Source of the DNA: a virus
DNA: 55,561 bases
Strand: one strand, 5' to 3'
Virus record (IMG/VR): IMGVR_UViG_3300031963_000186
Location: 1 to 55,561 of that record
The notes under the pieces were generated by a model. The model searched no databases and was not told the origin of the DNA. It saw only the letters and a list, made by a program, of their open reading frames with translations. The translations under genes were made by a program, and so were the position numbers. Positions 14,876 to 47,368 of the stretch are shown here, one piece after another. Each line of letters starts with the position of its first letter. The first letter of the stretch is position 1.

Positions 14876-16351
14876 TCATGCAGCGTATGGGTTCACCAGC
14901 CGCGGTTTGTGCTCTCGCTCAACGGCCTTTTGCACTGGTTTAGTGACTGAGAGCGTATTGCGGTCAGCCAAGAGCCGTAGCGCTTGAGTCGTACTGTCGA
15001 CAAAATCATCATGCTTGATGGATCTTTCTCCATGGAAGCTGCAGATTTGCGAGATAAGCGGGTCGGCCCAGGAACGTGGATTCCCAGGCCGTTTGTCGGA
15101 TTCTACAACCCAAACGAATCCATGTGCAAATAAATGCGAGACTGCGTGAAGTCTTTGAAGCTTGTCAGCATTGCCCGGGTTGTATGGATAAGCCAGGATG
15201 TCCTCACGGGACAGCATTTGGCGGAGGCTGATGCCTGAGCCCTTGTCCTCGATAATCAGCAAGTCTGGTGAACGGCCTGTGAGATAGGACTGCTTGGGCC
15301 CAACGAGAGGCTTGATGACTGGCTTCATGTCATCGTCGCCATACCTGACTACCATCTCTTTTTTGACCCGTTCAATCAGGTCTGGCATGCCGAGGCGGTC
15401 TTGCCAGCAGTCAAGCAGCAAGAAGGCTGGCTTCTTGTCCTGCCTGAATACGCCCCAGACCGAGCAGGCCGTGTAGTCAGGATCGTGGCTCTTGCGGTCC
15501 GTAGTCTTCTCGCTGAAGGCCGTGTCCAGGCTCATGACGATGTACTCGAAGGATGGCAGCGGCTTGTCCTTAGACCACAGCTTCAGCCAGCTGCGCTTGA
15601 TGATGCCTGACTCTTCAGGATCGATGACCTCGGCGTAGATTTCCTGGCGGCCTAACTGCGTGCCTTCATACTGGGTAATTTCCTCAAGGAACGTCTTAGC
15701 CAGGTTCTCGGCATTGTCGTAGGTCGAACCTCTGGTCACCAGAACCCTGGACTTGGGCTTCTCGGCATCCTTGATCAGCTTGCGGACCAGCTCAATGGGC
15801 CTTGGGGTTGTGGTCACTACGACCTGGGGATTGTCCCCGAGACGTAGGCCAAAGCGCATCATGTCCCAGGTCTCCTCGACGTATTGCCAAGCAGCTAACT
15901 CATCGCACCAAACTCGGTGGAACTGTGGACCACGAAGACGGCTAGGTTCCTCAGCAGAGAAGCCACTGATGATGGACCCATTTGTCATGGTCAGTTCAGC
16001 CAGGCTCTTGTTGTAGCTCTCAATCTGGCTCTGTGGCAAGATGGACAAGAGCCCAGATTCACCCTCGAAGCAGACCCGTCTCACGTCAGAGCTAGTCGGT
16101 GCAATGACCCCGCATCTGACTCCTTGGTTCGTGACTGCGTATTTTGCGATGTCCTCAGCGCCAGTCCTTGTCTTGCCGAAGCCGCGTCCTGCCAAGATCA
16201 GCCACGTTGACCAGTCACCTTTCGGGGTCAGTTGTTCAGGTCTTGCGGTGGCTTTCCATTTAAGTTTCCAAGCCAGCAACTCAAGGTCCGACACCTCCAG
16301 CTGCGCGAGGCTGGACTGGATGGTCGTGAGTTCTGTCTTCGACAGGATCAT
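14876..16351 (-). CDS. terL: Terminase large subunit
   Basis: 491 residues, normal length. ATPase domain: Walker A AGRGFGKTRTG at residues 54 to 64, and Walker B FHRVWCDELAAW with the catalytic Glu. Nuclease domain (RNase H fold): acidic residues in VMSLDTAFSEKTTDRKSHDPDY, LLIIEDKGSG and HDDFVDSTTQALRLL. It powers DNA translocation into the procapsid through the portal and cuts the concatemer. It overlaps the small-subunit gene by 4 bases, and the portal gene follows 12 bases later. Confidence 0.93.
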   Translation of the reverse strand: MILSKTELTTIQSSLAQLEVSDLELLAWKLKWKATARPEQLTPKGDWSTWLILAGRGFGKTRTGAEDIAKYAVTNQGVRCGVIAPTSSDVRRVCFEGESGLLSILPQSQIESYNKSLAELTMTNGSIISGFSAEEPSRLRGPQFHRVWCDELAAWQYVEETWDMMRFGLRLGDNPQVVVTTTPRPIELVRKLIKDAEKPKSRVLVTRGSTYDNAENLAKTFLEEITQYEGTQLGRQEIYAEVIDPEESGIIKRSWLKLWSKDKPLPSFEYIVMSLDTAFSEKTTDRKSHDPDYTACSVWGVFRQDKKPAFLLLDCWQDRLGMPDLIERVKKEMVVRYGDDDMKPVIKPLVGPKQSYLTGRSPDLLIIEDKGSGISLRQMLSREDILAYPYNPGNADKLQRLHAVSHLFAHGFVWVVESDKRPGNPRSWADPLISQICSFHGERSIKHDDFVDSTTQALRLLADRNTLSVTKPVQKAVEREHKPRLVNPYAA

Positions 16352-16668
16352 TTCGTGTTCAGTTTCTCGATGAGCCCGGTGATCTGCTCAATAAGCTCGA
16401 GCCGCATCTCAAGGGGACCGCCGTCGGGTCCGGTGATCTCGACGGACTTCTTCTTGGCGTAGCCGTACTGAACCAGCTCCTTCATACAATCCTTGCGGAC
16501 CAGGAGATCGTGAGTGGGTTCAAAAGCCATCTCGGCCAGGGCCTCGAGAGGGTCACCGTGCTTGTCGACGATGCGGTCAAAGGTCTCTTGCCTGAGGATG
16601 TTTCTCTTGTTCAGACTACCCTTTTTGCGCCCGGAGCCCTCTGGCTTCACTCCTTTTTGGAATGGCAT
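16348..16668 (-). CDS. terS: Small terminase subunit (putative)
   Basis: 106 residues from ATG 16668 after CAAGGAGTACAAGT. The N-terminus PFQKGVKPEGSGRKKGSLNKRN is basic and is typical of phage proteins immediately before terL (DUF5681-like), followed by helices DPLEALAEMAFEPTHDLLVRKDCMKELVQYGYAKKK. It probably recognises the packaging site and stimulates the large subunit. It is the first gene of the late leftward operon. Confidence 0.7.
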   Translation of the reverse strand: MPFQKGVKPEGSGRKKGSLNKRNILRQETFDRIVDKHGDPLEALAEMAFEPTHDLLVRKDCMKELVQYGYAKKKSVEITGPDGGPLEMRLELIEQITGLIEKLNTK

Positions 16669-16699
16669 ACTTGTACTCCTTGCATTCTATGCAACCTCT

Positions 16700-16729
16700 A
16701 TTTTAGTTCGAAGACTAAAAAAGTGTAAA
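16700..16729 (-). promoter_or_regulatory. Candidate late promoter before the terminase genes
   Basis: Minus strand: TTTACA (16729 to 16724), 18-base spacer, TAAAAT (16705 to 16700), with the ribosome site of the small terminase about 25 bases further. A 7-bp dyad TTTTAGT/ACTAAAA (16701 to 16720, loop 6) covers the spacer and the -10 box, so it may be an operator that controls this promoter. Prediction from sequence only. Confidence 0.5.
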
Positions 16730-16747
16730 CAAGGCAACTCAAAATCC

Positions 16748-16895
16748 CTATATAGCATATTTTTTAGCCAAAACAGAGTGTATCAATACAGAAAACTAAT
16801 TATTTTAGTATCGTTCGTTCGATTTCATAAGAGTCCGCGCACCGAAAACAGGCTGGATTAATACACTCTGTTTTGGCTCTAAAACTCCTATATAG
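16748..16895. repeat. Long inverted repeat with 18-bp perfect arms
   Basis: AGCCAAAACAGAGTGTAT (16766 to 16783) is matched exactly by its reverse complement at 16861 to 16878; the centre is 77 bases. Outside each arm, 9 to 10 bases away, is a CTATATAG palindrome (16748 to 16755 and 16888 to 16895), so the symmetry extends over about 148 bases. It is too widely spaced for a terminator and looks like paired protein-binding sites, divergent promoters, or a replication origin. The right arm is part of the direct repeat shared with 34797 to 34866. Confidence 0.85.
16809..16881 (+). repeat. Border repeat, copy A
   Basis: 73 bases beginning TATCGTTCGTTCG and ending in TTAATACACTCTGTTTTGGC plus TCTA. 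The final 24 bases are identical to those of copy B at 34797 to 34866, and the start (TATCGTTCG), the C/G-rich middle and the AGGCTG element also match. Both copies have the same orientation and flank the early region. Confidence 0.85.
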
Positions 16896-16933
16896 CGTTT
16901 TGACAGATGATTACATTGCTTGCATTTTTAATT

Positions 16934-16939
16934 TATAAT
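16934..16939 (+). promoter_or_regulatory. -10 box of the rightward regulator gene
   Basis: A perfect TATAAT 29 bases before the ATG at 16969, giving a leader of about 22 bases. No good -35 box is present (TTACAT at 17-base spacing is weak), and there is no clear ribosome site, so the gene may be activator-dependent and weakly translated. Confidence 0.5.
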
Positions 16940-16968: not shown

Positions 16969-17412
16969 ATGTCCCGGCCTATTGAAGCAACCTCCTCGTT
17001 AGATCTAGACACCATTAAGGTACTCCTCTGGGCCAGCGAATATGGCACCGGTCAGCCCAACGTCAGTAGACTCTACGACCGCGAGTCAGTTGACGGTTTG
17101 ACATTGAGTCGGGGGACCTTTTTCAATGCCGTGAAGGGCCGGAAGGTCACCAATCATGTCATCGAAAAGATCGACGAACTCATCGCACTACGCGGTTGGA
17201 GGTCCAAGTGGCTCGATCACTGTCGTGAGGAGCATCGGCAGCGGGTTATCCGTGCTTTTGGTAGTCCTCAGGCCTTCTGTCAGGTCTGCGGCCATGCCTG
17301 TCCGAACTGCGGAAACCCTAAGACTCAGCGTCGTCGGGAGGCCGTCAAGGCTTACTTGAAGATCGATCCGGTTGATCTTGGCTGCAGGGTCATGTTAGAC
17401 CCCGAGGAGTAG
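16969..17412 (+). CDS. Putative DNA-binding regulator with Cys4 cluster
   Basis: 147 residues, one of only two rightward genes. Residues about 40 to 75 (GLTLSRGTFFNAVKGRKVTNHVIEKIDELI) resemble a helix-turn-helix of the XRE/Cro type. Near residue 105 is CQVCGHACPNCG, four Cys in two CxxC pairs separated by three residues, likely a zinc site. It is transcribed divergently from the terminase operon, with the inverted repeat and border repeat between them, so control of the late promoter is a sensible guess. The translation start lacks a clear Shine-Dalgarno. The family is not recognised. Confidence 0.7.
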   Translation: MSRPIEATSSLDLDTIKVLLWASEYGTGQPNVSRLYDRESVDGLTLSRGTFFNAVKGRKVTNHVIEKIDELIALRGWRSKWLDHCREEHRQRVIRAFGSPQAFCQVCGHACPNCGNPKTQRRREAVKAYLKIDPVDLGCRVMLDPEE

Positions 17413-17418
17413 GGGGAT

Positions 17419-17443
17419 AAAAAACCGGGCCTCAAGGGCCCGG
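17419..17443 (-). terminator. Rho-independent terminator of the small-protein operon
   Basis: On the minus strand CCGGGCCC pairs with GGCCCGG around a TTGA loop, followed by TTTTTT (17424 to 17419). It lies 60 bases behind the last early gene (17506) and 7 bases behind the stop of the convergent rightward gene. It ends leftward transcription before it can run into the regulator gene; in the rightward sense there is no T-tract. Confidence 0.85.
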
Positions 17444-20829: not shown

Positions 20830-22257
20830 CCAATCCTTCCATTCATCGCCCAAGACCTTGGCTGATAGCTGCCGCTTCTCGCGAAGGGCCTTGACGATCT
20901 TCTCATCCACAGTCTTCCGGCAGATCAGGTCGACGTAGTTCACTGTGTGCTTCTGCCCGATCCTGTGTGCCCGATCTTCTGATTGCAGCCTGTGTTCTAG
21001 GTTGTAGCTATTCGAGTAATAGACCACTGTCGTAGCTGCTGTCAAGGTAATACCAAAGCCCCCGGTCTGGGCGTTGCCGACGAAGTACCTGCATGACGGG
21101 TCCTCCTGAAAACGGCTGACGGCATCTTGCCTATCTTTCGTGGTGGTGTCCCCGTAGTAGGTCACGACAGACTTGGCTCCGTACTCCTCCTTCAAGGCCT
21201 CCTCAATGGCCTGGATGTCAGCCCGGTAATTCGCCCAGATGATCACCTTGCCACTGGTCTCCTCCAACACTTCCATGAGAGCCTTCATCCGGTTACTGTC
21301 GACAGGACTGACCTTGCCGTCATCAGTGGTCAAGTGGCCGCAGACTAATTGATGCAGCCTAAGTAACTTAGTCAGCACGATAGGAGCCGACACCAGCTTC
21401 CCCTCAAGTTCTGCCATGGCCTTCTCCTTGAGGCTCTTGTAGTGCTTCTTCTGGTCATCGGTCAACTCGACCTCGTAAAACTGGTAGATCTTCTCAGGCA
21501 AGTCGAGGCACTCGTCTTTTGTGCGGCGTGAACTCCAGGACTGAATCGACTTAGTCAGGTCATCTAGATTCTTGTACCCCTTGATCTTGGTGAAGGCACG
21601 ATTACCTGCCGTGATCTTGACCATCTCAGCGTACTTTGCCCGGAAGGTGTAATAGCTGCTGAAGCCCAGGAGATGCGGGTTTAGGAAGTTGGCTTGGCTG
21701 TAAAGGTCTAGTGGATTATTGGTCACTGGAGACCCAGTTAGGATCCTCCGGTAATTCGCCTTGCGGCCGATCTTCATGCAGGCCTTTGTTCGCTTCGCAT
21801 CCCGGTTCTTGATGGTTGTGGACTCGTCTACGATCATCAGGGTCTTATGGCAGTTGACAAAAGACTCGGCCACCTTGTAACTACGGTCAAAGGCCAACGC
21901 CTCGATGTTCATGACAAACACCTTCAACGGCTCCATGGGCAAGAATAATTGGGAGTAGCTCTTCTTCAGTTCGGTGTTTGCGGCACTATCCCAGTAAGTC
22001 CCCACCCACGTGACGTAATCAGGCATGTGTTCAGGCAGCTCCTTGGTCACCCAGTTGCGGTATGACCCCTTGTTGCCCAAGATGAACACGGCATCGATCT
22101 TGCCTGTCGCATACAGCCACGCAGCGGTATCAATCGTGGTCTTCGTCTTACCTAAGCCCATCTCCCAGAACAGGGCGAACTCGTCCATGTCCCGGCTACG
22201 CAAGAAGTCCTCATGCTGGTGCTCAAAGGGCTTTGTCTTGTACTTGTACTCGATCAT
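20821..22257 (-). CDS. SNF2-family DNA helicase / translocase
   Basis: 478 residues. Motifs in order: Q-like FEHQHEDFLRS, Walker A WEMGLGKTKTT (residues 31 to 41), motif II VDESTTIKN (DEST in place of DEAH), motif III GSPVTNN, then the C-terminal RecA lobe with VTYYGDTTTKDRQDAVSRF, motif V GGFGITLTAA and motif VI SEDRAHRIGQKHTVNYVDL. Compact phage-type SNF2 enzyme. Likely acts in replication fork remodelling or recombination. Last gene of the first early operon, joined by ATGA to the upstream gene. Confidence 0.92.
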   Translation of the reverse strand: MIEYKYKTKPFEHQHEDFLRSRDMDEFALFWEMGLGKTKTTIDTAAWLYATGKIDAVFILGNKGSYRNWVTKELPEHMPDYVTWVGTYWDSAANTELKKSYSQLFLPMEPLKVFVMNIEALAFDRSYKVAESFVNCHKTLMIVDESTTIKNRDAKRTKACMKIGRKANYRRILTGSPVTNNPLDLYSQANFLNPHLLGFSSYYTFRAKYAEMVKITAGNRAFTKIKGYKNLDDLTKSIQSWSSRRTKDECLDLPEKIYQFYEVELTDDQKKHYKSLKEKAMAELEGKLVSAPIVLTKLLRLHQLVCGHLTTDDGKVSPVDSNRMKALMEVLEETSGKVIIWANYRADIQAIEEALKEEYGAKSVVTYYGDTTTKDRQDAVSRFQEDPSCRYFVGNAQTGGFGITLTAATTVVYYSNSYNLEHRLQSEDRAHRIGQKHTVNYVDLICRKTVDEKIVKALREKRQLSAKVLGDEWKDWLS

Positions 22258-22889
22258 TTGTTCAACTCCTCAAAGCCGTAGAACCATTCATCCTTGGCGC
22301 TCCACTTGGCGTGGTTCTCGACGCTGTAGACTTGGGTGGGGATCTTGAAGTCGGGTGTCTTTAGGGTTGCTGGCACCAGTGACACGTCGTACCACAAGCA
22401 ACGGTTGTTGGGCTGGCAAGCGAACTGGCCGTTGTCAAGCTGGATGAAGTTGTAGCTCTTATGTTCTTGCACCCCTTCGCTGAAGCTGGTGTCAATCCGG
22501 TTCATGTCAGGGGCCGCAAAGTCGATCGTGAACAGGTAATTCCCAAAGTGAAACTGCTTGTCCTTGCCAAAGAATTTGACCTTGAGTCCACGCAGGTTTG
22601 ACTTCTCGATGACTGCCATGTCGTACGACAAGCAATCCCAGATCTGCAAGTGATCAAGGGGTAAGGGCTCATCAACCGGCTTCCATACGTAGGCGCTGAT
22701 GGGTAGCTTGTCATACAAGGCCCCGTAGTTCGTCAGCATGGACTCGATACGGAAAGCTTGGCCCTTGATGGCTTTAGCAGTCATCCATACGCAAGGCTCG
22801 AGTTCTCCATGACCTGACTCGTGGTTGTACAAGAATTCTCTCCGAACAAAACACTTGACCGGCGGAATGTTAGCAACTAGAAAGCTCAT
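22254..22889 (-). CDS. Conserved replication-module protein of unknown function
   Basis: 211 residues, alpha/beta composition with several Trp and Cys. Notable segments: FLVANIPPVKCFVRREFLYNHES (residues 3 to 25), EPCVWMTAKAIKGQAFRIESML, YGALYDKLPISAYVW and CLWYDVSLVPATLKTP. Sits between the UvrD-like and SNF2 helicases with 4-base overlaps on both sides, so probably works with DNA metabolism. I do not recognise its family. Confidence 0.7.
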   Translation of the reverse strand: MSFLVANIPPVKCFVRREFLYNHESGHGELEPCVWMTAKAIKGQAFRIESMLTNYGALYDKLPISAYVWKPVDEPLPLDHLQIWDCLSYDMAVIEKSNLRGLKVKFFGKDKQFHFGNYLFTIDFAAPDMNRIDTSFSEGVQEHKSYNFIQLDNGQFACQPNNRCLWYDVSLVPATLKTPDFKIPTQVYSVENHAKWSAKDEWFYGFEELNK

Positions 22890-33564: not shown

Positions 33565-34551
33565 TTACGCAGCTTCGGCGAACTCGACAGCTAGGTCGAG
33601 GGCTTGACGCTTGCGAGTGGCAGCAGAACCAAACCAAGCAGACGTGAGCCGCTTGTCTTGATCTGTACCTGCGACGTGATCGTAGTAGTACGTCACGGCA
33701 TTGAAGGCACCCCACCAAGTACCTTGGGATGTCTTGAGGTCGGCACCAGGTTGGGTGGCAACTAAGTCAAACAGGCGATTGACCGTACGGCCAAGATCTG
33801 CACGGCTGACGGTACCGTCTTCGCTCAAGTCTTGAGCTGCCTTGTACAGGTCAGGATTGACTAGTTTGCTGAAGAACTCCAAGACTTGCTGATCCTTGGC
33901 GCGCTTTTTGGCCAAGAATTCTGCCTTGTCCTTGAAGACGTCAAGGGCCTTCATAGCAAGACCCACTTTTTCTGCAGCTTGCTGCTTGATCTCGTCGTCA
34001 AAGGCGCGATCATGCGACATTCTGAAGGTGTTCTCTTGGTTCGTGTTATTCCGAAGGGCTGCGGTCAGGGTATTGTTGCAGACTACTCGGATTGGCGTGA
34101 ACAAGATCTGCAGACTACGGCCCCAGATGTGCGGGTTGTCTAGCAAGATGTAACCTTCGACTTCGTCCTTGCCGCCCAGCATAAAGCCGCCGTTGATCTT
34201 GGCCAGACCCCAGACACGCTTGCCACCTGAAAGTGAGCCAGCAGTCTCCATCTTCATGTCACCGGCCTTGCAGAACTTGTCAAAGAAGTCAAAGACTTCC
34301 GCGTTTTGCGTAGGCTGATAGTCTTGGCCGCAGATACCAAGGACCTTGTCGTCCAAATCCCGGACCAGAGCGAAGTGACTGCCTACTGGATTCTCATGGC
34401 CATCAATCCACAAAGCCTTTCGGTCGACTTTCCAATCCAGGCCAGCTGCCCCTAACATCTCGGCAGGCGTCAAGTTATCAGAAACCTGGACACCCAGACC
34501 ATGCCAAGGCACTTCATTGGCGTACGCCATTGTCTCAACATTGTGCGACAT
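33565..34551 (-). CDS. DUF932 (phage/plasmid-like) protein
   Basis: 328 residues from ATG 34551 with leader AGAAAGGAGAAAGTT. N-terminal VETMAYANEVPWHGLGVQVSDNLTPAEMLGAAGLDW, then LGICGQDYQPTQNAEVFDFFD, LSGGKRVWGLAKI, GYILLDNPHIWGRSLQILFTPIRVVCNNTL: this is the DUF932 / TIGR03299 family found in phages and plasmids, function unknown. As the first gene behind the stronger early promoter (TATAAT) and ahead of a hairpin it should be highly expressed early. Confidence 0.88.
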   Translation of the reverse strand: MSHNVETMAYANEVPWHGLGVQVSDNLTPAEMLGAAGLDWKVDRKALWIDGHENPVGSHFALVRDLDDKVLGICGQDYQPTQNAEVFDFFDKFCKAGDMKMETAGSLSGGKRVWGLAKINGGFMLGGKDEVEGYILLDNPHIWGRSLQILFTPIRVVCNNTLTAALRNNTNQENTFRMSHDRAFDDEIKQQAAEKVGLAMKALDVFKDKAEFLAKKRAKDQQVLEFFSKLVNPDLYKAAQDLSEDGTVSRADLGRTVNRLFDLVATQPGADLKTSQGTWWGAFNAVTYYYDHVAGTDQDKRLTSAWFGSAATRKRQALDLAVEFAEAA

Positions 34552-34592: not shown

Positions 34593-34657
34593 ATTATAGG
34601 CCAAAATCACGTACCGCGCGACTTATTACTAAAAATTTTTAGCTGGGACTTTTACTA
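34593..34657 (-). promoter_or_regulatory. Early promoter P1 with palindromic operator
   Basis: Minus strand, in order: AAAAGTCCCAG (34653 to 34643), palindrome CTAAAAATTTTTAG (34642 to 34629), GCGCGG (34619 to 34614), 15-base gap, TATAAT (34598 to 34593), then the DUF932 leader. Same element order as P2 at 20244 to 20306; only the palindrome's outer pair (CT..AG against GC..GC) differs. It drives the DNA-metabolism operon. Confidence 0.7.
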
Positions 34658-34796
34658 GATAATTTTCATTATGACATTTTTATGGCAATCTGGGGTCATT
34701 TTATTGCCTTTTTCATATCAGATATCTCCAAAAAAGCTATAGAGTAATTCTAGAGCCATAACTGGTTGGATCAGTGTGTGCAATTAACTTTTCTTC

Positions 34797-34866
34797 TATC
34801 GTTCGCTCGTCTCTAGACTGCGCGTGCTCAAAAAAGGCTGTCTTAATACACTCTGTTTTGGCTCTA
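34797..34866 (+). repeat. Border repeat, copy B
   Basis: 70 bases beginning TATCGTTCGCTCG and ending with the same 24 bases as copy A (16858 to 16881). It lies between the end of the late operon and promoter P1 of the early operon, in the same orientation as copy A. A weaker inverted partner lies upstream (GAGCCATAAC), suggesting it too was once or still is part of a dyad. Confidence 0.82.
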
Positions 34867-34889
34867 GAAATCTCTTATAGGGATTTTGG

Positions 34890-37800
34890 CTAATTTTGAG
34901 CCAATCCCCCGCGCTTCTTAAGCTTTGTTACCGACTTAACATCTTCTGGCCGCAATTCCCTGGCCTGAGTGATGATTGGTTCCTCACTGGCCTTGGTCAT
35001 GACAGAGTGGCCATACTTTCCACGGCCAAACGGATCGACCATCAACATCTCGATGTGAGGGTCGGATTGCATTTGCTGGGCACGACGGTTAGCGTAGACT
35101 TCGGCAGCCCTTCTTTGCGGGCTGGCATAAATCAGACCAGACGCCTCAGACGCCTTGGCTGTGTCGTAGTCTCCGGCGTAACCCCGGTAGACGCCCTGCA
35201 GCATTTTTTGCTCTTGGGCTCCCCTGAGGGCCTCAGAGAACTTTTCAGCAGCTTTCCTAACCATCCCTACTTTCCCACCATCCTGAAAGCCCTGGGGACC
35301 TCCTAGGGGTTCCTGGGATGGTTCAGGGGCAATGGATCCCTTAGGCACAGAGAAGTACCTATTTCCTCGCTTGATGATCTCCGCACCGCGTTCTTTTTCG
35401 GCCTCTTCTGCCAGGTTCCAGGTCTCATGTTGCCGACCTTTTAACAGCATGTAGCTGTCCTCTGGCAAGCCGTACTTCTGGCGGTCTTCTGGCCTTGTCT
35501 GGGTTACGGATCCCCAATGGCCTTGGTTCTCACCAGACTCCTCAGGGGCCATGCCAGCAGACTTTGCGGTCTCGTAGTCGTAGTCAGATCCTTCTGGGTC
35601 AAAGGCCGGTTGTTCCGTTTGTGCAACTCCCAGTCCTACGACAGGGGCCGCGGCAAAGAGCCGTTGGCCTTCTGCCTGGATCCGCTCTCTCATCTTTGGG
35701 GTCACGTCAACCGTGAAGGCGCGCAGTGTCTTGCCTTCTTGTTTCTTCAAACGTCCTTCGGCAGCTTCTCGTAGACCTATTTCATTGATGCGGTCTACCG
35801 TAGAAAAAGGCAAATTGTTGTACGTATCGTTGTACATGCTGTCATAGTTTGGATCGGCATCAGTGATGCCTCTCCTTGACAAGACGTTCTCAACTTCCTC
35901 ATTCATGTGGTAGCCTATTGTCCGACTGACATCTTCGTCGTCAAGACTTAGGGTATCGATCATGTCCTCTATCTCTTGCCAGGTTGGAGCCCCTTGTCTT
36001 CCTCCGGTCATGACGATGTCTTCATACCCGGTCTTAGCGTCAAACTCCTTACCGGCGTAGCTTCTCACGAAGTCGGGAACCCGCTTGTCATAGAACGACT
36101 TCATGCCTTCACCACCAACGGCTAAGTCTTCGCCAGTGATGGTTCTCATCTGACCAGAAGGGGTTTCAGGCCCTAACGTTTGGGTACTAAGCCATTGATT
36201 ATAGGAATTTGTCAATTCGTCTATTTTTTCAACGTCATCCGAATTTACATTTTTTTCCCAGTCTTTAATAAACTGGTTTAACCAAGAACGTTGCTCTCTT
36301 GTCATCTGATCACCGTGAGTGGCCAAAAGCTCGTCAGCTGACATCCCAGGCATGGGTATAGCTTGGGCACTAGAAATATTTTCAGAAGGTTCTTCAATTT
36401 GCTTTGCGATGTTTGACCCAAAGACTTCCGATACTGTCTTGCCTTTGGCAGGACCCGTAGTAAAGATGCCTTCAGCAGCTTCTCCCATAAATACGGTGTT
36501 ACCATCTTTTAAGGCAGAGACGATTATTCTTCCGTCGTTATAAGGATTGACCTTGATCTCATCAATGGCCTTACGCATCTCATTGCTGTACCGCTTGATT
36601 TGTTCAATGCCTGGGCTAAAGGCAACCTTGTCATAGCCTTCTTTGGCAGCTATGTCAAAGATCTCCTTAACGGCCAGCTCATGCCAGGTATCTTTGAAAG
36701 GGGCATCTGGTTTCTTAATATCAAAAGAGTCTATTTTTGCAGCTAAATCAAACATAATTTCACGATGAGGAGACGTAGAGTGCTGCCTTTCCATAGCCCC
36801 ACGAATAGGCTTTCCAGCTACAGGATCAAAAGAAATCACGTTGACGGACCAATCGTACTTTGAAGCTTCAAGGGCCTTGTTCCTAGCGTACTGCTTAGCC
36901 GTTTCTTCGTCAACATTGCCGATGCTCAAGGCCCTCTCTAAAGCCCTGTCGTATTCCCGTTGATATGCAGGCGAGTTTTCTCCGGTGTTAAATGACAAGA
37001 CTTTTTCATATCCCATGTCACTCTTGACTACCGATCCGGGCTTGTAGTGTTCCGCAATCTCGTCTATGGTCAATCCATCTCTACGAATACGACTTAACTC
37101 TTCTTTAAGACCCGATAGAATTTTTTCATCTCCAGGTTTACGATAACCAAAGTCTTTAGGCAGTTCTTTTTCAAGTTCTGCCATACGTTCCCTTGTCAAA
37201 CGATTTTTGATTTTTATAAGTTCACGTTCATTTTCAGGAGTAACATCAAGTTTTCCAGAAGCTCTAAGTTGTTCTATTGTCTTCTGATGTATAGCATCCC
37301 GCTCTTTATTGATGACGGTCTGAATATACTTTTTACGAGCATCCCGGGCCTTTTGATGCCAGTCAGATTGGATCTCGTCGACATATAAGACTTTCTCGTC
37401 ATTAGGGCCAACACGGTCACTGATCCTGAAGTGCGTCAAGATATTAGGCGTGTCGTAATGTCCGGCTACAAATTCTTCTGCAGGAACCATCAAGTCATCC
37501 ATTAAGGTCATGGCCTCGAATCTAGACTCAGGATCTAGCTCATACACGTTCTTGCCGCCTAATAACTCTGCTAAACGGTTTCGCTTTGTGCTAAGGCCTG
37601 CAGATGCAGATTCAGGCAAGTGAACCATGACTTCCCTGTAGTTCTCACCACCTGGTTGGCTCCATTGTTTGTACTTGGTCTCGTACTTATCAAGATCTAT
37701 TTGGAAACGTTTGTTGGCAGCCCTAAAAGCTACCATCAAGTCTTGATAATCTTGAGGAGACCTAACATCAATATCTTCTGGTCCCATCCTTAAGATGGTC

Positions 37801-38804
37801 TCAGGATCAATGACGTCACCCGTTCTTTCATCAAAAAACCCCATGTTCGTCCTGTCTTCAGGATTGACAATGGGTTCAATTTCATATTTCTGCAAGATGT
37901 TTTTATTTTTATCGGTCAGCTTAAACTCATAGTCCTCAGGAACCCCGGCTCCCAAGATGGTCCGTTGGGGAATGGGGGCCTTGTTACGCTGAGCAGCTTG
38001 CCGTAGCTCTTCCTGAGTGATCTTAGGTGCAGTCTGCAGCTTTTGACGGATACCACGGGTCTCAAGTTCTTCTTTCTTGACACCGGGAGTCGTCTCAAGT
38101 TGCTTAAGGATCTGTTCGCCGGTACCCTTCTTTTGTTTCAGGGTCTCGATGGCCTTGTCAATGGCTGAAAAGAATCGGCCGACCTTGCCACCCTTTTCAT
38201 ACTTCTGAATCAGGCCACCCAGTTCTTTCTTTACTGGGTCCTCAAGGGCTTCGCCAATGACGCCGATGGTCCCACCAAAACCGGTTCCAATCCCGTAATT
38301 GATGGCCTTAGGATCCACAATAGGAGACAGGTATTCCACAGGAGCCGCTGCTACCTTACCTGCTACGCCTGCCTTCTTGACGGTACCAAGGGCCTTGTTT
38401 AATAAGGCTCCTGGCACAGGTATCTGGCCTAACATCTCGCCACCGGCATAAGCAAAGTGTTGAAGAGCCCCTCTAGGCTCGTCAATTCCCATCTGCTTAC
38501 GCACGCCCTCCTTGATTCGCCCTGCTTGCTTATCAGCCTCAACAGAGAATTCGGGGGCGTACTTTTCATCTACCAAACCAAGCAGCGATGGGATGGCAGC
38601 CGTGTTGTAGTAGATGCCAGGGGTTCCTTTGCCAACCCCAACTTCACCCTTCTCATTGATGCCGGCCCACTGGCTTCTGAAGCCAGCAATGGCCTGGTCT
38701 AAGGCAGAAGATGCTTTTTTCTTTTCTTCCTTTAAGGAAGCCGTCAGGTTCTTGATCTTCTCGGCCTTACCGCCATCCTCATATTTGCGCTTGAGATCAT
38801 CCAT
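34890..38804 (-). CDS. Very large virion/ejection protein with GG motifs
   Basis: 1304 residues from ATG 38804 (TGATG overlap; a GTG start one codon earlier is possible). Largely hydrophilic and helical, with charged repeats. Recognisable parts: KYEDGGKAEK at the start, YEKGGKVGRFF near 210, then HFRISDRVGPNDEKVLYVDEIQSDWHQ near residue 470, a segment typical of giant aquatic-phage virion proteins, and at the C-terminus GVYRGYAGDYDTAKASEASG with IYASPQRRAAEVYANRRAQ. This last part resembles an ADP-ribosyltransferase-like fold (YRG..D; S-P..A..YA). Four GG motifs occur, including the final KKRGGLAQN. Last gene of the late operon; I infer an internal virion or ejected protein. Confidence 0.75.
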   Translation of the reverse strand: MDDLKRKYEDGGKAEKIKNLTASLKEEKKKASSALDQAIAGFRSQWAGINEKGEVGVGKGTPGIYYNTAAIPSLLGLVDEKYAPEFSVEADKQAGRIKEGVRKQMGIDEPRGALQHFAYAGGEMLGQIPVPGALLNKALGTVKKAGVAGKVAAAPVEYLSPIVDPKAINYGIGTGFGGTIGVIGEALEDPVKKELGGLIQKYEKGGKVGRFFSAIDKAIETLKQKKGTGEQILKQLETTPGVKKEELETRGIRQKLQTAPKITQEELRQAAQRNKAPIPQRTILGAGVPEDYEFKLTDKNKNILQKYEIEPIVNPEDRTNMGFFDERTGDVIDPETILRMGPEDIDVRSPQDYQDLMVAFRAANKRFQIDLDKYETKYKQWSQPGGENYREVMVHLPESASAGLSTKRNRLAELLGGKNVYELDPESRFEAMTLMDDLMVPAEEFVAGHYDTPNILTHFRISDRVGPNDEKVLYVDEIQSDWHQKARDARKKYIQTVINKERDAIHQKTIEQLRASGKLDVTPENERELIKIKNRLTRERMAELEKELPKDFGYRKPGDEKILSGLKEELSRIRRDGLTIDEIAEHYKPGSVVKSDMGYEKVLSFNTGENSPAYQREYDRALERALSIGNVDEETAKQYARNKALEASKYDWSVNVISFDPVAGKPIRGAMERQHSTSPHREIMFDLAAKIDSFDIKKPDAPFKDTWHELAVKEIFDIAAKEGYDKVAFSPGIEQIKRYSNEMRKAIDEIKVNPYNDGRIIVSALKDGNTVFMGEAAEGIFTTGPAKGKTVSEVFGSNIAKQIEEPSENISSAQAIPMPGMSADELLATHGDQMTREQRSWLNQFIKDWEKNVNSDDVEKIDELTNSYNQWLSTQTLGPETPSGQMRTITGEDLAVGGEGMKSFYDKRVPDFVRSYAGKEFDAKTGYEDIVMTGGRQGAPTWQEIEDMIDTLSLDDEDVSRTIGYHMNEEVENVLSRRGITDADPNYDSMYNDTYNNLPFSTVDRINEIGLREAAEGRLKKQEGKTLRAFTVDVTPKMRERIQAEGQRLFAAAPVVGLGVAQTEQPAFDPEGSDYDYETAKSAGMAPEESGENQGHWGSVTQTRPEDRQKYGLPEDSYMLLKGRQHETWNLAEEAEKERGAEIIKRGNRYFSVPKGSIAPEPSQEPLGGPQGFQDGGKVGMVRKAAEKFSEALRGAQEQKMLQGVYRGYAGDYDTAKASEASGLIYASPQRRAAEVYANRRAQQMQSDPHIEMLMVDPFGRGKYGHSVMTKASEEPIITQARELRPEDVKSVTKLKKRGGLAQN

Positions 38805-41800
38805 CACTGATTCTCCCGGAGAATTCGTTGAATTGTGGCTTCATCGTCTTCCTCGGTAGCGGGTTCAGGAACGGTTGCAGGCTTGACAGGGGTGCCTTCA
38901 GGGTACGCTGTTCCTACAGCCCCTGAGATGGCCTTCATGCGGTTAGCTGCTCTCTCTTGCTGCTTTGTAAATTCGCCAGCACTCTTCTCAAGACGGCTCA
39001 AGACACTATCAACTTCAGGCAAGTTGCTCGACTTCAGCATCGTTGCTACTTCACCTGCTGTCTGCTCATCTAATGTCGACCTCGCCTGCAGATACTTAAG
39101 AACACGACCCACCACGGTACCAGGGGATCCTGTGGCTACATTGACGGCTTCTCCTGCCACGTCTAGGACATTAGCAGATCTCTTCAAGTCTTCAATGGCT
39201 TCCTTCTTGTTAGCCGTCCTACTATTTCGAATGACCTCTTGGGCGTTCCTAAACAGTTCGGCTTCACGCTGGAGAGCTGCCTCAAATACCTTGTATTCGG
39301 CTGGGTTGTCAAACAAGGCCTCAAGACGCTTACGAGTAGCAGGGGCACCAATGACACGCTGGGCAGCATTGATCTGCTGGGGAGCATCCATGATCTTAGT
39401 CAAGATCGACTGGGCGGCTCCAATTCTCAATGCATCTTTCTCGGCATCAGACATCCCACTAACCAGCTTGCGGGCTTGCTCAGGCAGCATCTTAGGTGTC
39501 AGGTAGTCATCTTTGCCAAGACGAAGGGCATCGAGAACCTCCATGTCACCGGCATACTTGGCACGGGCAGCGGCGTACTCAGGCACGTTCTCGTCAATGA
39601 CTCCGATGTACGCCTTGCGAAGATCCTTAAGTGCGTTGGCTTCTGCCTTTGCCATGCCCTTACCTTGATAGCCTTTGTCAATCAGGGCATCAATGCCTCG
39701 CTTGATGTAGTCAAGGGTCCGGACATCTGGAATCTTGCCAACTGAGACCATGTTACCATCGGCATCTAGGTTATAGATGTCATTCAAGACGTACTTGCTT
39801 GGATCCTCGCCACGGAGTTCGGCAGCCCTTGCTTCCTTATTAGCGATTCTCTGGGCCTCTCTAAATGCATCCTTGAAGGTCTCATCTTCCAAGACTTTCA
39901 GAAGTCGGGTATCGTCAACCGACCCATGGGCATAGGCGCGGTCATACATGTTGTTGGCATTAGCACGCAAGCGTCCTACTAACGAATCTTCGGTTGCCGT
40001 AAAGTCTTGGCCCTTGGCCAGGGTCCGGCTAGTTCTTTCGCCAACCAAATCACGACCTTGTTCTAGCCGTTCCTCTAGTGGGGTTCCCAGGGTCTTCCTG
40101 CCTTTACCTGGTAACGTGACAACGGCTTCACCTAGTGTCTTGGTGGAAGGGGTCACGTCCATCAACATGGGTTTGACTCCCATCTTCTGGTCGGCAATCA
40201 TCTTAGCTCTCACATCTGCCGGAGTCATCTCATCACGACTCATGGCCTCCAAAACTTTCATGGTGGCACGGTCTTCAACACTCTGGGTCGATGGTGACAC
40301 GACATTCTTTAGTGCCTTAGCGCCACGGACCCCAAGGTCAACTCCCTTAGCAACGACAGGGCCTGCTACGGCACCTGTTGCACCGCCAGTCACGGCACCC
40401 ATGCCACGTTCACCCTCTGTCGCAGTACCTGCCCCTGAGATGGCCCCAGTACCTGCCCCAACGGCAGTTGCCTTACCCATCTGGCCTGTCATGAATCTAG
40501 GCAAGACTTGGCCTAGCTTTTGGGCAGCTTGTGCCATACGGGCTCCACCAACAGCAGAAGCCACTTGGGTACCCGGCACAAACATGGCAGCCACTGTAGG
40601 GACGGCACCAGAGACCAGTTCGGTACCGATAGCAGTAATTGGGTATCTCTCAGCAAACTTTTGATAAGACTCACGCTCCTCACGAAGCACATCTTCATAA
40701 GGACGGCCTTCCATCTTGGCACGGACCCTGGCAACGGCTTCGTCACCAAAGCCAAAACCAAGTCCCTGGCCTACTGCCCGACCAATGTTTGCAGCGCTAA
40801 GTTCACCACCCTTTTGCATCTTGACGGGACCGCCATCAGCCATACCTTCAGGGGTGTCTGATGCTCTCCTTGCAGAGGCGCCACTGACCAAGTCTTGCAG
40901 CCGCTTCTGGTTGTCAGTAAGGCGACGAGTAGCTGCTGCCTGGGCATTTTTCCAGATGGTCTCACGAGTCTTAGCGGGCTTGTTGATTGAGCCTTGTAAG
41001 TCAACCAAGATCTTGCGTTCACCTTCAGTTGGGGCTGCTCCAAAGATCACCTTCAGTTGGCTCAACGCATTGCTGAGAATCAGGTTCTCCAGCTCTGCAG
41101 TGGCCGTCTGGGCTTCACTGCTACGGACCAAAGGCACCAGGCGTCCGGCAACTTCACGGGCACCTGCCGTTGATCCTTCATAGGCCACCTCATTTAGCTT
41201 CAGGGCCTTTTCAAGTGTCAAGATGACTTCTTTACCGGCAGTAACGCGATCCTTTAACTCGTCTTGCATCTTGAGTTCTGTAGGATTTAGCTTATCTTGA
41301 CCTTGACGGACTAGATCTTTTACCCGACTGTTGTAGTCCGTGGTACCTGGAACAAAGCCCTCATCTGCGGCAATCTTCCCTTGCGGTGATTGCGGCTTAG
41401 TCGATACACCCTCAGCACCGCTTGGAGGTATGTGAACCAGCTTGTCATACCGACGCTTGTACATGCGCTTGGCTTCAGGAGGCGTATTTGGATCATTGAT
41501 CTTAGCAATCAGCTGATCTATCTCAGTACCCTTTTGGGCTCCTCCCCTTGTGGTCAGATAGTCAATCCGGGCTTTTGCTGTCTTTTTAGCTTCAGCTGTT
41601 GCATTGGGATCATCAATGATCTCTTGCATAGCCATGACTTCAGGCACCCTTTCCTTTGGTACTGACCTAGCAAGGGTAGACAGGGCACTGATCTTGGTCT
41701 TCATACCTTCAGACTTGGTATCTAAACCAGCCATCCGATATTTCAGGTCAAGGTCTTCTAGTTCTTGTTGAGACTTGCGGCGCTCGCCTAAGATCCCTGC

Positions 41801-46246: not shown

Positions 46247-47368
46247 TCAGATCCTCACGTTAAACAGTGCGGCGCTGAAGACGTTCCCCATGCCAGCACT
46301 CAAACTGAGCACCATGCCGTCAGGAGCCTCAACTGGATGTGAGAGGTATCGATCGTCCCTCTCTGTTCGGTTGAGGATCTCAGGCACAATGCCCTTCTCC
46401 AAATCTTTGAACAGCAAGAGGGTCTCTAAGAGTCCGCTCGCTCCCATCGTATGGCCGATTCGCTGCTTATACGATGTCGCTACAAACCCACTCAAGGTGG
46501 AATCTAGGGCCGTTTTTTCGGCCGCATTATTAGACTTGGTCCCAGTTCCATGAGTCTTCACGATTTTAATTTGTTCTGGGTTAATTTGACAAAATTCAAG
46601 TGTTCCTTTAATGGCCCTGACAAACCCCTGACCGTCTTCTCGTTGGCCGATCGTGTTCGTCAAGACTTCCGTAGCCGTGTAAGCCGAGACCAGTTCAGCC
46701 GTGATCTCTAAGCCAGAACGGCGTACGGCTTCCTCAGACTCGAAAACTGCTAAGGCAGCTCCTTGCCCTATATAGAACCCGAAGTTCTTCTCATCAAAGG
46801 CGCTAGGAACGACTTGATGGGTCTTGGCCATGCTTTCTGTCAGGGTAGCCTTAGCTTCCCCAAAGAACTGAAGGGTCATATTGTTGACCTGATCTTCAAC
46901 AGCTAGGACAATGACCCGGTCAAACCCGTAAAACTTGATCAAGGTCTGTACATCCATCAAGACCTTCAGGCCAGAGGTACAAGCCGTGGCGTCAGTTGCC
47001 GTGTGATCAATCTCCCCGCACTGCGCAGCAACCCGGCCTGCGTAGATCTGGGTCAGGGACAACGGGAGGATCTTATAGTTGTAGCTCATCTGGTTGTCGA
47101 TCTTCATCTTGTGACCCTCGGCAGCAAAGTTGCTGTTACCAGAGGCTAGGATGAAGGCCGTCTTACCCGGCTGGGTTTGTTTCAACAATGAAAACAAATC
47201 AGGGGTCAATATCTTTTCGGCAACTGCATGGGGCGGGCAGACAAGGCCTGTCTTGACCCTGGAATAGGTATCAGGAAACCAGTGCAGCTTTTGCGGAAAA
47301 GGATGGTCTTCAAAGAGTTGAGCATCTTCCGTACACACGGTGCGCTCTAGGGTCAGAAAGATTCTCAT
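46247..47368 (-). CDS. 3-ketoacyl-ACP synthase (KAS I/II-like)
   Basis: 373 residues with the intact thiolase-fold active site: Cys130 in DATACTSGLK, His273 in KTHGTGTKSN, Lys301 and His306 in KQRIGHTMGASG. The C-terminal LSLSAGMGNVFSAAL matches the Gly-rich FGFGG-like loop. About 40 residues shorter than E. coli FabF, mostly at the N-terminus. It would condense malonyl-ACP with an acyl group. Its ATG overlaps the stop of the ACP gene, so the two are co-translated. It lies among tail and ejection genes rather than metabolic genes, which is very unusual; virion lipidation or host lipid change are open options. Confidence 0.88.
   Translation of the reverse strand: MRIFLTLERTVCTEDAQLFEDHPFPQKLHWFPDTYSRVKTGLVCPPHAVAEKILTPDLFSLLKQTQPGKTAFILASGNSNFAAEGHKMKIDNQMSYNYKILPLSLTQIYAGRVAAQCGEIDHTATDATACTSGLKVLMDVQTLIKFYGFDRVIVLAVEDQVNNMTLQFFGEAKATLTESMAKTHQVVPSAFDEKNFGFYIGQGAALAVFESEEAVRRSGLEITAELVSAYTATEVLTNTIGQREDGQGFVRAIKGTLEFCQINPEQIKIVKTHGTGTKSNNAAEKTALDSTLSGFVATSYKQRIGHTMGASGLLETLLLFKDLEKGIVPEILNRTERDDRYLSHPVEAPDGMVLSLSAGMGNVFSAALFNVRI

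Follow-up and report, generated by a model that had tools for sequence, protein, structure and literature searches.

The 148-bp dyad located between the terminase genes and a rightward regulator gene in the window (the whole stretch of 55,561 nucleotides of viral DNA analysed here) is one of two copies of a mirror-image module, present also in dozens of related uncultured phages. The reading favoured here, with moderate confidence and on comparative sequence data, is that of a duplicated operator, through whose two-armed modules the regulator would control itself and both long operons of the phage. In this model, the HTH/Cys4 protein encoded at 16969-17412 would bind module A, adjacent to the gene that encodes it, at the two inverted arms and at the weaker half-sites inside them, and would do likewise at module B, approximately 18 kb away. 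On the arms it would form a nucleoprotein complex over approximately 150 bp, which would control transcription of the regulator gene, the packaging/late operon, and the replication operon.

Architecture of the duplicated module

Viewed as a circle, the genome comprises two long leftward operons and one rightward regulator gene, and a module heads each operon. Module A heads the packaging/late (terminase) operon, and module B the replication operon, which begins with a DUF932 gene and also encodes DNA polymerase A, primase, and helicases. The features involved are the following:

14876-16351, minus: terminase large subunit (terL)
16348-16668, minus: terminase small subunit (terS), assigned by position and conservation beside terL; first gene of the packaging/late operon
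16700-16729, minus: sigma70-like promoter of terS, TTTACA-18-TAAAAT, outside module A
16748-16895, unstranded: module A, box to box, 148 bp
16738-16788, minus: half-site toward terS (arm, A-tract, TATAG box, and TTTTG); model R1, 50.4 bits, E 9e-15
16748-16755, minus: CTATATAG box, terS side
16766-16783, minus: putative operator arm of 18 bp, terS side; outward reading ATACACTCTGTTTTGGCT
16810-16841, minus: asymmetric core (GCGCGGACTCTTATGAAATCGAACGAACGAT), oriented relative to the operon as in module B
16845-16874, unstranded: inner weak half-site forming with the outer arm a local palindrome (AAAACAGGCTGGATT/AATACACTCTGTTTT), clearer in relatives
16857-16901, plus: half-site toward the regulator; model R1, 48.4 bits, E 4e-14
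16861-16878, plus: putative operator arm of 18 bp, regulator side
16888-16895, plus: CTATATAG box, regulator side
16934-16939, plus: -10 element TATAAT of the regulator gene, outside module A
16969-17412, plus: regulator, 147 aa, with a putative lambda-repressor-like HTH (approximately residues 10-76), a long helix, and CxxC...CxxC
33565-34551, minus: DUF932 gene, heading the replication operon; ATG probably at 34551, preceded by AGGAG
34593-34598, minus: -10 element TATAAT of the DUF932/replication operon; TAGAAT at the equivalent place in relatives
34727-34775, minus: module B half-site toward DUF932; 42.8 bits
34737-34880, unstranded: module B, the whole second copy, box to box, 144 bp
34843-34889, plus: module B half-site toward the late-operon end, holding the third 18-mer; 45.2 bits

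The preliminary description had reported the perfect arms of module A, flanking boxes at 9 to 10 bases, and the lack of a gene crossing them, all of which hold. Relocated by sequence search, the 18-mer AGCCAAAACAGAGTGTAT occupies 16766-16783 and its exact reverse complement 16861-16878, with gaps to the boxes of 10 and 9 bases. No credible gene runs across the module, terS starting at 16668 (minus) and the regulator at 16969 (plus); the only overlap is that of a 115-aa GTG ORF (plus, 16514-16861) antisense to terS. The dyad is far above chance, as three occurrences of the 18-mer with up to three mismatches were found against 0.06 expected from shuffled windows, and three of the CTATATAG box against 0.20 expected. 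The third box, at 46768, has no adjoining arm. A tRNA search of the window returned none.

A third exact copy of the 18-mer (34846-34863, minus) had been missed, and with it the second whole module. Module B can be aligned over its full length with module A in reverse complement, core (GCG..GAACGATA) and outward TATAG boxes included, and a scan of the window with model R1, a half-site model built from relatives, detected exactly four strong half-sites, two per module. The outer arm of module B faces the 3' end of a late gene, with no divergent gene there, and this late gene can terminate within the box (as in relatives G002 and G004). The mean score of this arm (approximately 44 bits, hand-averaged over DUF932 loci) equals that of the DUF932-facing arm. 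Such conservation of an arm with no gene to face argues for a self-contained two-armed unit rather than simply two outward promoters. The last gene of the late operon, which adjoins module B (34890-38807, 1305 aa), is among the least conserved large genes (approximately 40-45% to relatives), and its C-terminal part varies between phages.

The sigma70-like promoters flank the modules from outside. On the terS side, TTTACG-17/18-TANAAT is kept in 36 of 38 distinct loci (0.05% of shuffles), with 13-44 bp, mostly 18, between the box and the -35 element. On the regulator and DUF932 sides, the distance from the box to the first TANAAT (TATAAT/TAGAAT) outside it is 21-94 bp. For DUF932, the ORF list extends the gene to a TTG at 34593, whereas homologues and the AGGAG indicate the ATG at 34551. 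The distances between boxes and promoters show no helical phasing. The inner geometry of the module is tight, and the outer geometry loose. Directly after the regulator gene, a strong hairpin terminator (CCGGGCCCTTGAGGCCCGG-TTTTTT, 17425-17443) lies between convergent transcription units.

Conservation among relatives

A set of 80 IMG/VR loci was fetched on the basis of a related terL. Wherever this region is present in the close relatives, a module lies upstream of terS, with a box-to-box span of 143-156 bp. Paired half-sites were found upstream in all 48 IMG/VR regulator loci (96 half-sites, two each) and in all 21 DUF932 loci (42 half-sites, two each). In relatives with near-complete genomes there are exactly two modules, one before terS and one before DUF932, collinear with the window. 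These are 16-21 kb apart along the contig in most of them, and approximately 17 kb apart around the circle in the permuted G002. The same module locations across all relatives led to the rejection of a transposable element or MITE.

Read outward, the half-sites follow the pattern TGATACACTCTGTTWTGGCT-N12/13-TATAG-SG-TTTTG, with the consensus TATTGATACACTCTGTTWTGGCTAAAAAATNNNCTATAGCGTTTTTGG, and all 103 distinct half-sites contain TATAG without variation. Collection with a fixed pattern yielded 13 stretches, all from contigs of the window's phage family. An inner inverted half-site (CCAAAACAGAG...CTCTGTTTTGG) is often present at one arm of the module, and an AT-rich segment adjoins the core. 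The core is inverted at module A in 10 of the 48 loci (nine with the type-2 regulator described below, plus the distant L162), with breakpoints within the arms; at module B all cores share one orientation (20 by score, and L178, tied by score, forward by eye). Reading the half-sites as sigma54 (-24/-12) promoters was rejected, as spacing and GC are missing on the regulator side.

The module is absent from the group with terL at approximately 74% (L061 and its kin), and Caulobacter phage RW, which among isolates is the nearest (terL 57%), yielded no half-site. The record of the latter (L201) carries a terL fragment and terS at both ends (1-1020 and 59250-60442), which points to long terminal repeats. 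The location of a "ferredoxin" gene (phrog_3704, 22254-22889 in the window) shifts among relatives: in G002 the gene separates module A from the regulator, in G003 it lies within the early operon, and in others it is unmatched; in L044 and L053, the sequence upstream of the regulator suggests a gene of this kind there.

The regulator and its putative operators

The regulator alignment has 24 invariant columns, the four cysteines among them. Its AlphaFold2 model (pLDDT 84.7, and 93-96 over residues 31-90) predicts a helical domain at the N-terminus, one long helix, and a Cys4 region modelled with low confidence. The structural matches obtained with VIA-align are modest (Z 4.9 over 59 residues at 2.3 A for the DNA-binding domain of HNF-1A, and Z 3.3-4.5 for VanUg and EspR) and would fit a resemblance to HTH domains of the lambda-repressor/POU type. 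The protein has no match at E <= 0.001 in Pfam or PHROGs, or in the PDB by Foldseek, and none among sequenced phage isolates; in a viral library, Foldseek retrieved solely a 76% identical uncultured phage protein. It is also absent from a bacterial collection of one genome per species, which suggests that these phages may be strictly lytic. Scans of the main ORFs against PHROGs and Pfam revealed no integrase or partition gene, many small ORFs being left without assignment.

The arms were compared with their neighbours by partial Mantel tests of arm divergence against regulator, terS, and DUF932 divergence. The regulator-side arm follows the regulator (r 0.61, or 0.67 with its HTH part; partial r 0.63 given terS), and so does the terS-side arm (r 0.54; partial r 0.49 given terS). 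Once the regulator is accounted for, partial correlations with terS are -0.27 for the regulator side and -0.03 for the terS side. At module B, where 11 genomes were used and one of the 11 pairs joins two contigs matching A and B of the window, the arms also follow the regulator (partial r 0.58, p 0.006), encoded approximately 18 kb away, and the arms of module A (0.66), against 0.17 for the adjacent DUF932.

Type-2 regulators, marked by MGRPI..GRGTFFGA with GRGTFFGA as the recognition region, coincide with CTCTYTGTAT arms at module A and, where seen, at module B, and also with the inverted core at module A. On the terL tree, the distribution of this type needs at least five changes, which indicates that regulator and module move jointly, as a cassette. 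The regulators of L060 and L058 are only 33% and 28% identical; boxes (TATATAG/TATAAG, with TTTTG) and the CGTTCGTTCG core are kept there, whereas the arms are different sequences.

Because the arms change with the regulator and not with terS or DUF932, and because replacement of the arms leaves boxes and core in place, the regulator most likely binds at the arms. The persistence of boxes and CGAACGAACGA core suggests that they are probably read by a conserved second factor. The earlier proposals of two sites for one protein in opposite orientation, and of the neighbouring regulator as their ligand, thus gain good support from the comparative data. Comparison across relatives shows, at the sequence level, a module that is tight in its inner geometry, present in duplicate, placed at operon heads, and variable in its arms in concert with the regulator; we infer direct binding by the regulator, the sign of regulation, any bridging between arms, and the roles of the TATAG/TTTTG boxes and the core. 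The true arm binder could also be the product of another early gene co-inherited with the regulator.

The flanking sigma70-like promoters favour an operator. However, no overlap between operator and promoter was found, the conserved promoters lying 13-94 bp beyond the box, and operators that are clear of their promoters and loosely spaced are odd for a classical repressor or activator, which is the main weakness of the operator reading. Against it also counts the module B arm that is equally conserved with no promoter or gene to control. The earlier idea of divergent transcription control is thus only partly supported, as module A lies between divergent genes with conserved promoters outside, but that arm faces no divergent gene.

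Several known systems share part of this organization. In phage lambda, the multi-site operators OL and OR, one of them beside the repressor gene, serve several promoters under CI, and in heteroimmunity operators and repressor change specificity together. The phages described here likewise hold two multi-site operator regions (putative), one by the regulator gene, a putative lambda-repressor-like HTH, and a joint change of specificity. Unlike OL/OR, however, their modules are clear of promoters, carry TATAG boxes, are mirror-symmetric around a conserved core, and stand in front of late as well as replication operons; no integrase was seen among the main ORFs scanned and no regulator match in the bacterial collection, and the regulator has a Cys4 tail. 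The stoperators of mycobacteriophages, repressor-binding sites repeated in the genome with matching repressor specificity, are comparable in this respect, but they are many, short, and single, in contrast to exactly two compound modules. In plasmid pLS20, a single regulator, RcoLS20, binds two clusters of operators that surround the divergent promoters of regulator and operon, with a DNA loop (PMC4207663). The arrangement proposed here resembles it in organization; the plasmid has a single switch site with overlapping promoters, whereas here the whole module occurs twice, approximately 18 kb apart.

Alternative readings and significance

A possible, though less probable, explanation is that the modules are twin replication origins, with the regulator-like protein or a partner as the initiator on the arms and the AT-rich flank by the CGAACGAACGA core as the unwinding element; A and B would then be primary and late origin. 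This would account for the two copies, the tight inner and loose outer geometry, the symmetric unit kept even where one side has no gene, the core found in either orientation at module A, and the AT-rich segment beside it. There is a precedent in phage SPP1, whose oriL and oriR, approximately 13 kb apart, share an organization of direct repeats and an AT-rich unwinding element and are bound by gp38 (PMC6316719, PMC3485210). As in SPP1, two distant copies of one organization lie in a circularised genome with an AT-rich element and a putative single phage ligand. However, the modules have inverted arms in place of direct repeats and are placed at operon heads beside a regulator, and no initiator or loader gene was identified.

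The sister phage G010 (L199/L200; contig of L061) also bears on this reading. Its TATTAGYA iterons, spaced every ~10 bp with flanking CACGTG, form an array duplicated, like the modules, before terS and at the head of the early operon (15784-15856 and 35726-35798). Unlike the modules, these arrays consist of direct repeats, are unrelated in sequence, and lack a homologous divergent regulator. That unrelated arrays occupy the two equivalent places suggests that a two-site logic is selected, whichever its function. A perfect TTATCCACA (DnaA box) occurs once in the early array and is missing from the paired late array.

Replication origin had been offered as an option in the preliminary description, and the two copies with an SPP1-like AT-rich flank speak for it, but 24 sampled modules contain no DnaA box save one loose match. 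The GC skew suggested there as a check at ~16.8 kb does not change sign at either module (fourfold sites), as would also be the case under unidirectional or concatemeric replication. Both results are weak counter-evidence. Furthermore, the protein that probably binds the arms, at 147 aa and with an HTH, carries no recognised signature of an initiator or loader, and the two operon heads and the adjacent regulator are better explained by transcription. A combined function, in which the duplicated mirror-image module would be both twin origin and operator for both operons, served by one small zinc-HTH protein, with a specificity cassette and an invertible core, appears unlikely.

More doubtful still is that each half-site is an outward phage-specific promoter, TATAG being the start, either T7-like or dependent on an activator, and the arm the site for its activator. 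The outward polarity, the invariant TATAG, the A-tract a few bases upstream, and the TTTTG downstream resemble a promoter core, and T7-type promoters end in CACTATAGGG. Nevertheless, no single-subunit RNA polymerase was found among the predicted proteins scanned: the DxDGD motif is absent from ORFs of more than 120 aa, and a PF00940 search gave no match, its positive controls being equally silent. TATAGS is a misfit for a sigma70 -10 element, separate conserved sigma70-like promoters lie downstream, and transcription from one of the module B half-sites would run antisense into the late operon, even though this half-site is equally conserved.

It is highly improbable that the module is an invertible switch, in which recombination between the inverted arms flips the core and changes expression. 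The inverted cores with breakpoints inside the arms would fit, but orientation follows the regulator type and does not vary among near-identical phages, module B cores are all oriented alike, and family scans detected no recombinase. Finally, a hairpin kept for base pairing in RNA or DNA, or a chance palindrome, has next to no probability despite the perfect complementarity of the arms in the window, as the arms of relatives average only 77% identity within a module and 68% between modules, so that they behave as protein sites rather than as a paired hairpin, an Rfam scan of the window gave no matches, and the module is conserved in dozens of relatives.

Co-variation of regulator and operator, as well as paired operator regions, are of known kinds. 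The duplicated mirror-image module, with its invariant TATAG boxes, invertible core, and cassette exchange, was not found in Rfam, PHROGs, Pfam, phage isolates, or the literature searched. Defined from sequence alone, it is probably the master switch in a widespread group of uncultured phages; for the regulator itself, Pfam, PHROGs, sequenced phage isolates, and the collection of bacterial genomes offered no counterpart. As arm types and regulators occur naturally in matched combinations, binding specificity can be put to a direct test, and the presence of two copies raises the sharp question of whether the module is a transcription switch, a twin origin, or both.
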